The notes beneath the pieces are model-generated. The model worked only from the letters and a program-made list of their open reading frames with translations, searched no databases and was not told where the DNA came from. DNA of 64,000 bases from Lucinisca nassula (taxonomy: Eukaryota > Mollusca > Bivalvia > Lucinida > Lucinidae), in the NCBI GenBank assembly GCA_963580285.1, contig OY757023.1, positions 85,399,108 through 85,463,107 on the forward strand, read 5' to 3'. Positions 55,908 to 59,711 of this stretch are shown piece by piece. Position 1 is the first letter of the stretch. Each line of letters starts with the position of its first letter. The position numbers were made by a program, and so were the translations under genes.

Positions 55908-56242
55908 TAAGGGGAAATTGCGCGGCAAGCATTCCAAGGCTGCATATAAAAAGTAGAAGTAAAACAAAGATCAGGAATTGATACAATTAACTTACTCCAC
56001 CCATAAAAGACACCAAAGGGAAAGAAATACAAACATTAAGCGACCAGACCATAATGGAAACCTAAACAAAGGAAGGCCATAATAGCAGTAAGACAGGAAG
56101 TTAATAACGGTGAGGACTCGACAGCAAGAAACCACTGAAATGCTGGAGCAAAAGAAAACCAACAGTTAGACTCCGATGAGCCCGACCAGAGACAGAGCAT
56201 CAGGCACCAACCAGCATTATCTCTCTAATTTTCAATAAGCCT

Positions 56243-59200
56243 TTACGTTAGAGCCGTCATAGAATCTGAGACCTGACCAACCGGCGTGCAATTAAAGAGG
56301 GAAGCAAAGTTGCTAACCGTGATTGGGTTAACTACCATGCATGCAGTCTGTCGTATAATATCCATGTTGTACCCAATCTTTTTATATCGAAGAATGATTT
56401 TACGAAATTGGGTGCTGAAGTCATTGCGGTTATATATTTTTCTGAATTTATATACTAAGTCACCATAAAATTCGGGTTCCGATAGACCTTGTTGCAGAAG
56501 AGATTTAAGTCCAATATTGAATTTTGAAATTAAATCAGAATGGCGTCTATAAAATTTTGAAAAGGCTTTGCGTAGTTTATGGTACCGATAACCCTGATTA
56601 AGGAGTTTGGCCGTTAATAATTTATTACGAGTGTTGAAGTCAGTTACATGACTACACACTCTAGCAAATCGAATTAATTGCGAAATATAAACGCCATAGG
56701 ATGTCGCACGAGGAACATCACCATCCAAAAAAGGAAAATTTACAATCTCAAAATCAAAGTCATCGCGTTTATCATAAATTTTGCACGAAACAAATCCATC
56801 TACAATAGATAGATGTAAATCCAAAAACGGGGCCTCGGTATCAGAAGAATTTGCTTTATTTAACTGAAGTTCTAGGGGGTAAATCTGAATGATCAAACCA
56901 TCAAAATATGTATTATCAATATTTAATAAATCATCTAAATATCTAGAAGTAGAGCTAAAAGCTTCAATAATTTCAGATTGGTTATCAATGGAAAGCGACA
57001 AAATGAAGTCTCTTTCATAACAATACAAGAACAGATCAGCCACAAGAGGTGCGCAATTAGTACCCATCGGAATACCCACAATTTGTCTAAATAACTTAGT
57101 ACCGAATCTAATATAAATATTGTCAAGTAGAAAGGTGAGGACATCACACACTTTCTGACATGACCAAAGTGTATAATTCTTATGCTCTTTAGAAGTGAAA
57201 AATGCATTTCTGACATTACATGCAAGATAGAGAGAATCTTCTCTGTGAAAAGCCCATTCAATTAAATCATTAAGCTTTTCTTTTATACGATTATGAGGAA
57301 GTGTAGTGTAAAGAGTGGAAAAATCGTAGGTAGACAGACTAGAAGCACGAAAATGTCTAGATTTCAATTTATTTAAAACCTCATTCGAATTTTTTATAGA
57401 CCAAAACAGATTTCTTCCTGATCTTTCAAAGACTTTATCACAATATTTAATTACATGCGTTTTAATAGCAGTAAGACAGGAAGTTAATAATTTAGAAAGT
57501 TCAGTGGTAGTGCAAGAGCTAGAATTTGCAATAAACCGTGCTTTGTAAGGTTTTTTATGAAGTTTTGGTAACCAGTATAGCGTAGGAAGCTTGTCTTGGC
57601 CTTCGTTAACACACACAGCAAACTTGGTGGCTGAAAGACAAACATGTTTATCTACTATAGCTCTCTCTTCAGCTAAAGGCTGAAGTTCATAGGCCTTAGT
57701 ACCACCAAGCTCCTGCTTAAGCGTGTTAACATAGTGGAGCAGTCACACAACGACGACGTTGTTAGCGGCCTTGTCTGCAGGGGCCAAAACAAACTTCTTA
57801 TGAAATTCTTGAATACCTAGTTTAAGATGACGTAAAGACGTCTTGGGCTTAGGAGGTAATAAGTTAGTATTTTGAGAATAGAAAGAAATGCGTTTATTCA
57901 CTAGTTTTAAAATGCTAAGTTTCCAGTCCTTAAGGGCTTTTTGCTCAACATACTCTCGCTTACACCATCGATTACCGAATTCATTCAATGAAGCAGCGAT
58001 TTCATCTCTACATTTACTGAAATCAATTTTAGAAGGAAACCGATATTTCGGTCCTTTAGAAATTATATTCCTTATCCTAGAATCAGGAATAATTTTCAAA
58101 TTGCCAGTAATTACATGACCAGCAGCAGGATAGCAATACTTTGAGTTTTTACAATCACATGAATCAGGAGTATTGGTATCAATATCAAGATCTGAAACAA
58201 GTTTATTGAAATTAAAAATGATAGATCTAACAGGTTTGTTATATTTATAGCAAATTATAGGTGTTTCAGTATTTTGAAAATAAGCAGGAATGGAAGAAAT
58301 TACCGATCTCTCACGGAAGATACCGGGCAAATCTATAAAATCCATACCCTTATTAGTGAAGGATATTTTGAAGAAATGGCGTTTATGATTAATTTCAGAA
58401 TCAATGTAAGGACGGAGAGTATGCTGAGTATAGCCTCTAGTTAAGAGAGAGCGGCATCATATAACTGATGAGAACTATCGTAGAATTTATTCGCCTCGGT
58501 GTCCAGAAGACGTAAAACAGAAACGGGTAATGAACTTAAAAATGAAAGCATAGAGTGGCGTCCATGATTTAATAATATAATTGACAGTCACTTCAGTCTA
58601 GTATGGTTTCGTTTAAACGCACGTGATTTACGTTTAAAGTTACCATTTTTCCTGGTGCCGTGAGATCTAGTTCTGCGTTTTCGACATTCCAGGAGTGAGA
58701 AAATATCAAAGTCCGGCATTCTGGAAATATTACCCTCATGATAAATGTTGTCATTAAATCCCAGTGGAAAAGGGGTCTGTAAAAACTTAATCCATTTCAG
58801 TTCAGCTTCATGTCTTTTGATTATTTTGAATCTAGATGTAGAATTTGCATCGTAGTAAAGTTTTTCCACTGGTTGTATAACAATGTTATTTACAGAATGA
58901 CCTGTACGTCGAAAGTGACGGTACAAGAAAGTGTCAATTTTCTTAGGCTTACTCATTCAACGATAATGCTCGTTCAATCTAGTTTTAAGCATGCTGTTAG
59001 TTTGACCGACGTACTGCATATAACAGTTTGCAGCACGTCAAGTGATTAGATAAATTAAATCTGTAGACTGGCATGTCAAATCAGACATGTTAACTACAGA
59101 GAAGCGTCTACCGTTTACAGATGAAGTAACGGTAGACGCAGTGCTTAAATGCGAACAACATCTGCACCTCTTGGCATTGCACTTAGAAATACTAGGGTAC

Positions 59201-59469
59201 ATTCCACTTCTTTTCCACGGATTAGTATATTTTCGAAGGATGGGCGATTTGAGAGGAGATAGTCTTATACGAAGACTACTCCCAAAAACATTGGTATTGC
59301 CTGCTCCTTTGAGATTAACTGAAGTTACAGAAGACAAATTTAAGGGTCTAACCAATACCGAAGGCAACATAGTATTAAAGTTCTTAATAGAATGGGGAAT
59401 CCGTACAGAAGAAGCAGAGTGTAACCTCAGGGGTGATAATGATATTTTAAATGTATTTGTAATACTCAT
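56243..59469 (-). CDS. Naiad GIY-YIG endonuclease/reverse transcriptase with four in-frame UGAs
   Basis: Start chosen at the ATG at 59469; an upstream TGA at 59638 limits the frame. Order on the minus strand: a basic leader; a Cys cluster (KCNAKRCRCC, about 59157-59128); GIY-YIG core (IYLIT at 59055-59041, YVGQT at 59013-58999, later HFRRTGHS); a basic linker; CDC motif (58159-58151) followed by GHVITGNLKI; PADKAANNVVVV; and a reverse transcriptase with LPKLHKKPYKARFI, DFSTLY, GIPMGTNCAP and YLDD (56941-56930). It ends in TAA. The frame contains UGA at 59038, 58957, 58588 and 57743 (lowest coordinate of each). A 1-nt deletion near 58444 shifts the frame. Apart from these it is open. The enzyme would nick target DNA and prime reverse transcription. 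Either a selenoprotein or an early-decaying copy. Confidence 0.8.
57743..57745 (-). other. In-frame UGA 4 (reverse transcriptase N-terminal block)
   Basis: Follows ADKAANNVVVV and precedes LLHYVNTLKQEL. In Naiad proteins as I recall them, this position after VVV is commonly Cys. Confidence 0.5.
58588..58590 (-). other. In-frame UGA 3
   Basis: Between NHTRLK and LSIILLNHGRH in the basic linker. The frame stays open on both sides. Confidence 0.4.
58957..58959 (-). other. In-frame UGA 2
   Basis: Between LNEHYR and MSKPKKIDTF within the endonuclease. I cannot say from memory whether relatives have Cys at this site. Confidence 0.4.
59038..59040 (-). other. In-frame UGA 1 (endonuclease Cys position)
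   Basis: Follows IYLIT and precedes RAANCYMQYVGQT. In GIY-YIG domains of Penelope-like elements the residue after this strand is normally the first Cys of the zinc-binding set, so Sec is a plausible reading. The spacing to the next Cys (four residues) is wider than the usual CxxC. Confidence 0.55.
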
Positions 59470-59711
59470 TTTGGTTAATAAGGTTGTGATACCGTCAAAA
59501 CTAAAGCGATGTTCATACTGGTTATTAAGTAGATAAATAAAACAGCATTTAAAATTACTGAAGAAGATTCCTTCGAATAGAAGGAAGGTACAACAAAAGC
59601 CCACAAAACATCCTAGTCTACTTGAAGTACAGGGATGTCAAACAAGCAGCTGTTATACAACGAGGAACGAACATCGGTTTAATAATGACCTTCAACAGGT
59701 ATCTAAAGGAT

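Follow-up and report, generated by a model that had tools for sequence, protein, structure and literature searches.

We report that a retroelement family in the lucinid clam Lucinisca nassula very probably encodes a selenoprotein of about 1,074 residues that joins an endonuclease and a reverse transcriptase in a single chain, into which four selenocysteines (Sec) would be inserted at in-frame UGA codons under the direction of one SECIS element at the end of the open reading frame (ORF). The copy described here lies on the minus strand of a 64,000-nucleotide stretch of DNA, hereafter the window, which was placed on contig G000:C17 of the 2.93-Gb genome. It appears to be a damaged member of a young and abundant family of Naiad-type Penelope-like retroelements (PLEs). 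We consider the Sec reading well supported because the UGA codons are conserved, relatives carry cysteine at three of the four sites, a SECIS-like hairpin is present, and the host genome encodes tRNA-Sec; both the decoding and the function of the hairpin are what we infer from these patterns in the sequence.

We searched the genome with the 3'-terminal 1.5 kb of the ORF and scored the best 40 of 4,014 candidates, 39 of which are other copies of the element, about 98-99% identical; these were taken with their flanks for codon counts. The alignment begins at 59711, and is thus full length, in 12 of the 39, the remaining copies being shorter matches, and the segment 56081-55944 is recovered as a separate match in most copies. 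A second sample comprised 18 copies (9 distinct sequences) picked by the endonuclease part. In the lines below, paired fractions refer to the first and second samples, in that order.

55944..59711, minus strand: copy of the apparent Naiad-type Penelope-like element; its 5' homology to full-length copies starts at 59711 and the common 3' tail extends to about 55944.
56243..59469, minus strand: ORF, from the ATG at 59469 to the TAA at 56243; 1,074 amino acids in open copies, broken in the window.
59071..59073, minus strand: candidate Sec site 1, residue 133; TGC (Cys) in the window, TGA in 17/17 and 17/18 copies, with one TGG.
59038..59040, minus strand: candidate Sec site 2, residue 144; TGA in 17/17 and 18/18; a conserved Cys of PLE endonucleases (L050, P0123).
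58957..58959, minus strand: nonsense TGA unique to the window copy, not a Sec site; AGA (Arg) in 17/17 and 18/18.
58588..58590, minus strand: candidate Sec site 3, residue 294; TGA in 21/22 (one TAA) and 18/18; Asp or Gln in relatives.
57743..57745, minus strand: candidate Sec site 4, residue 575; TGA in 39/39; Cys in many relatives.
56243..56245, minus strand: true stop codon UAA; TAA in 39/39 copies.

Across the 39 copies, the four family-wide sites (59073, 59040, 58590 and 57745) are TGA in 94 of 95 codons, the remaining one being TAA, and the 18 further copies show TGA in 53 of 54 codons at sites 1-3. Further in-frame stops in the 39 copies number 10 in 32,189 codons, each seen in a single copy (3 TGA, 5 TAA and 2 TAG), a distribution that speaks against the chance origin that the preliminary description had still entertained for the UGAs. 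Seven of the 12 full-length copies have no TAA or TAG through all four UGAs; L024, which is among these, has a fifth TGA, and six of the seven extend over 1,074 codons when read from the shared ATG.

The window copy itself is dead, since the TGA of site 1 is replaced by the Cys codon TGC, a former Arg codon now reads TGA, and an insertion of 2 nt disrupts the frame. All four minus-strand TGAs listed in the preliminary description (59040-59038, 58959-58957, 58590-58588 and 57745-57743) are present, and its core proposal that such codons are read as Sec is well supported for the three that are family-wide. The TGA at 58959 is ruled out as a Sec site, as all 35 other copies have AGA there, and the site at 59073 had been missed because the window copy has Cys at this position. 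Other stops or unrelated sense codons in the remaining copies had been named as the mark of ordinary nonsense mutation; such a codon is found at 58959 (AGA), and not at 59040, 58590 or 57745. It was also rightly noted that the final 1.5 kb is free of stops, the frame being open up to the TAA at 56245-56243, and that the TAA at 58443-58441 disappears upon a change of frame: this codon is in frame because of a private 2-nt insertion in the window copy, namely two extra nucleotides (CT) near 58451-58444 that are absent from 24/24 covering copies.

As the copies are about 98% alike, conservation among them is on its own weak evidence, and we therefore turn to more distant relatives. Among the best 120 proteins listed of 1,030 over the threshold, 39 cover site 575, with Cys in 28, Trp in 10 and Arg in one. 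Moreover, 19 of the 120 start directly behind this site, as gene finders do past a stop, and the Trp-bearing P0002, P0003, P0014 and P0016 form one sequence family with relatives of this type. Because other clusters of this family start just past the site, the Trp entries are probably UGA codons translated with table 4. Sites 133 and 144 are occupied by Cys in the distant relatives L050 and P0123 and by Trp in P0122; the corresponding Cys positions are presumably part of the metal-binding cluster of PLE endonucleases. L050 is one of five distant loci (L048-L052) recovered when genome contigs were searched with an alignment, and was the one used for the comparison. A single-protein query of genome contigs and viral contigs found no relative, and the alignment query found none in the viral contigs. 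Two close relatives, P0039 and P0048, come from MAG records of Ca. Thiodiazotropha, which we take to be lucinid clam symbionts.

Thus, a conserved in-frame UGA coincides with Cys in relatives at 133, 144 and 575, whereas at 294 the UGA is kept and the five aligned relatives have Asp (four) or Gln (one) and never Cys. The comparison with Cys-bearing proteins that had been proposed earlier therefore places Cys opposite the UGAs at 144 and 575, and also at 133, but not at 294. This difference raises the alternative that 133, 144 and 575 are Sec and the UGA at 294, which is located between the domains, is a true stop splitting the endonuclease part from the reverse-transcriptase part. We regard this as improbable, given that the frame continues past 294 without a gap, that in P0014 and other relatives this position is a sense codon within an uninterrupted frame, and that any SECIS would also act on this UGA.

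Diverged copies of 75-88% identity in the same genome retain TGA at 57745 in 3/3 cases; no diverged copies covering the other sites were found in the sequences examined. We further used as a genome query the distant relative P0122, an endonuclease and reverse transcriptase protein that spans from the endonuclease to site 575. Its best 73 matches of 24,430 candidates, a best-scoring list and not a random sample, have exactly four TGAs in 72 cases and three in one, with TAA or TAG in none; from their count and the span of the query, these TGAs are likely to be the same four sites. A similar query was made with P0008, in which site 575 is Cys; each of its 72 best matches, out of 134,738 candidates, contains exactly one TGA and is otherwise free of stops, again in a best-scoring rather than a random list. 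This figure of >130,000 candidate places stems from a loose first look and is not a count of copies.

These data bear on the possibility that the UGAs are ordinary nonsense codons of a dead source copy amplified in trans, the family then being non-autonomous. With copies about 98% alike any mutation of the source would look conserved, and the window copy does carry a private TGA (58959). Nevertheless, a nonsense origin fits poorly with the fixation of four UGAs and zero TAA or TAG, with the openness of the rest of the 1,074-codon frame in 7/12 full-length copies, with Cys at three of the sites in relatives, and with the persistence of TGA at 57745 in 3/3 of the 75-88% copies; we therefore hold it to be very unlikely.

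Examination of the 3' end of the ORF revealed a structure that might supply the signal for Sec insertion:

56186..56275, minus strand: SECIS-like hairpin across the stop codon; AUGA at 56260-56257, UAA-A at 56245-56242, UGAU at 56202-56199.

The hairpin consists of AUGA, twelve bases, AAA, a helix of eight pairs with one U-U mismatch, and UGAU, such that its cores, spacing and helices match the Rfam model SECIS_1. The match scores are below the model's cut-off of 35 bits both in the window (56270-56191, 22.5 bits, E 0.61) and in 10/10 other loci (22.3-27.9 bits). Every core is preserved in 48/52 segments (25 distinct sequences). The ORF ends within the hairpin, whose AUGA is still translated (Met-Thr) and whose AAA has its first bases in the stop codon UAA.

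The relatives offer a further view of this region, as 65 of 122 relative proteins end in a conserved C-terminal tail. The residue after the tail Met is Met, Thr or Ile, all with codons starting with A, in 64 of these 65, and the second residue is Ala, Val or Asp, with codons starting with G, in 65 of 65; as background, residues with ANN codons (M, T, I, N, K) follow any Met in 159 of 817 cases. This pattern is what selection on AUGA-N-GG would leave, among relatives that are mutually non-independent. Tests of the fold itself weigh against a SECIS. The stability of the hairpin shows no excess over shuffles (z 0.62 and 0.10). Pairing in 15 chosen sequences amounts to 94.9% of 236 cells, compared to 94.3% for shuffles (69/500 as high) and 29-48% for slid positions, and the covariation score, equaled in 38/500 shuffles, is hardly above them. 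A loose SECIS pattern occurs at five places on both strands of the window, including 56260, versus a mean of 1.35 in 20 shuffles; the pattern is thus unspecific by itself, and it is the position at the ORF end that is telling.

Other observations concern the same region. A subfamily (L038:4969-5070, L039, L040, L043, L044 and L021:469-570) has 12 extra nucleotides in the hairpin apex, which complete a stem of 8 bp capped by a GAGA loop and make the fold more stable (-29.9 compared to about -20 kcal/mol). A strong but short inverted repeat at 55796-55724, just past the element, was considered as a SECIS and rejected, as it has no AAR motif and is not part of the element as shared among copies; it gives a weak match to mir-1263 (29.4 bits, cut-off 95) and is probably another small repeat.

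With regard to the host, Rfam searches of the genome identified two strong tRNA-Sec genes (80 and 77.4 bits), both called tRNA-SeC(tca) by ARAGORN, and seven weaker matches barely above the cut-off (47.2-49.5 bits). Selenium-free readthrough, in which a near-cognate tRNA for Trp, Cys or Arg would decode the UGAs and yield little full-length protein, is likewise very unlikely, given that the Trp entries in 10/39 relatives covering site 575, which together with the one TGG at 59073 might favor it, are best explained as table-4 UGAs, that readthrough at four UGAs in succession would be very inefficient, and that the SECIS-like hairpin and the Cys-bearing relatives point to Sec instead.

We accordingly return to the four-Sec selenoprotein, for which the following course of events can be envisaged. 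The host tRNA-Sec would read the four UGAs, guided by a single SECIS hairpin. Situated where the ORF ends, this hairpin would have its 5' core within the last codons and an AAR motif made up of the stop UAA and one further A. If the UAA serves as the AAR motif, each ribosome completing the protein would have to open the same structure that had directed the recoding of its UGAs, and the hairpin would then refold. The resulting protein would carry Sec at 133 and 144 in place of the conserved endonuclease Cys, at 575 in place of a Cys that shortly precedes the reverse-transcriptase core, and at 294 where relatives have Asp or Gln.

The domains of this protein were assigned as follows:

58780..59184, minus strand: N-terminal GIY-YIG-like endonuclease region, LIYLIT-U-RAANCNMQYVGQT ... 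HF..TGH, from the alignment.
58151..58159, minus strand: CxC motif, Cys-Asp-Cys, between endonuclease and reverse transcriptase.
56930..57625, minus strand: reverse transcriptase core, with GIPMGTN at 57076-57056 and YLDD at 56941-56930; sub-threshold match to RVT_1.

The endonuclease-like region occupies about residues 96-230, upstream of the reverse transcriptase, and is assigned as such because the N-terminal region matches P0123 (E 1.5e-12), a protein with a Pfam GIY-YIG domain (4.1e-6). A direct Pfam search of the element protein recovered no GIY-YIG and only a sub-threshold RVT_1 (E 0.33), and one with the window frame recovered no family. A CxC motif in the linker is part of the definition of Naiads, and the family combines this motif with an endonuclease N-terminal to the reverse transcriptase and with tandem or partial-tandem copies with pseudo-LTRs, as expected of Naiads. 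Naiads are not known to carry a hammerhead ribozyme; the Rfam hits with E values of 10 or lower from the window and ten other loci included none, a search that a diverged one could escape. The AlphaFold model was too poor for use (mean pLDDT 50.9, pTM 0.31). We also observed that P0122, P0002 and P0007 have Trp in place of the first CxC cysteine, which is encoded by TGT in the present family; if this Trp is likewise UGA translated with table 4, other Naiads might have Sec there.

Naiads are said to have been described by Craig et al. in 2021, with those of spiders and clams reportedly having come independently to encode multi-Sec proteins. The present family resembles these in being a permuted Penelope-like element with an N-terminal endonuclease, CxC motif and C-terminal reverse transcriptase, in its tandem copies and in its several in-frame UGAs. 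It may differ in having one non-Cys Sec site and a stop-straddling SECIS; multi-Sec Naiads as such being already known, it is these two predicted features that are unusual here. The stop-spanning SECIS may already have been noted by Craig et al. The canonical Penelope/Poseidon element (P0123) shares the reverse transcriptase and the GIY-YIG endonuclease, but its endonuclease is C-terminal, and sites 133 and 144 are Cys where the present family would have Sec.

The closest parallel to the position of the hairpin is the fowlpox virus GPX4, whose SECIS lies within the coding sequence, while two reviews place all cellular counterparts in the 3' UTR (PMC6769590, PMC8310308). The fowlpox gene codes for a viral peroxidase with one UGA and a SECIS in frame; in the present element only the 5' arm of the hairpin is in frame and the stop codon is the apical motif. 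A literature search for SECIS elements overlapping an ORF gave nothing to the point beyond these fowlpox GPX4 reviews. A SECIS spanning a stop codon in a transposon would therefore be unusual.

Whether this is a non-viral selenoprotein gene that has both a SECIS across its stop, with UAA as the AAR motif, and new UGAs recruited at non-Cys positions seems to us evenly balanced. If it is, site 294, never Cys in aligned relatives, suggests that an existing SECIS permits the recruitment of UGAs at non-Cys positions. More generally, a transposon might depend on the selenium machinery of its host for a four-Sec protein, in which some of the Sec would occupy endonuclease positions held by Cys in relatives. 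A SECIS that truly overlaps the stop would provide a natural test case for termination versus UGA recoding, and the many copies might serve as a record both of the replacement of Sec by Cys, exemplified by the window copy, and of the gain of Sec at a non-Cys site.

Finally, we note some peculiarities of the insertions. In the 3' tail of the window copy, the 28 nucleotides at 56107-56080 are an exact duplicate of a piece of its own ORF (57490-57463), at a place where other copies have about 275 nucleotides of different sequence, which could reflect a template switch or filler repair. Near-identical sequences of about 75 bp (TTAACCCTTTTTGTACCAAATGG...) stand on either side of this copy, at about 59779-59711 and 55909-55840, and perhaps represent a target duplication or a repeat hosting the insertion. 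Head-to-tail copies about 4,158-4,163 bp apart are seen at several places (including L009, L021, L024 and L032), and arrays of up to four such copies have a near-constant spacing of about 4.16 kb, for example at G000:C3:59979089-59993251.
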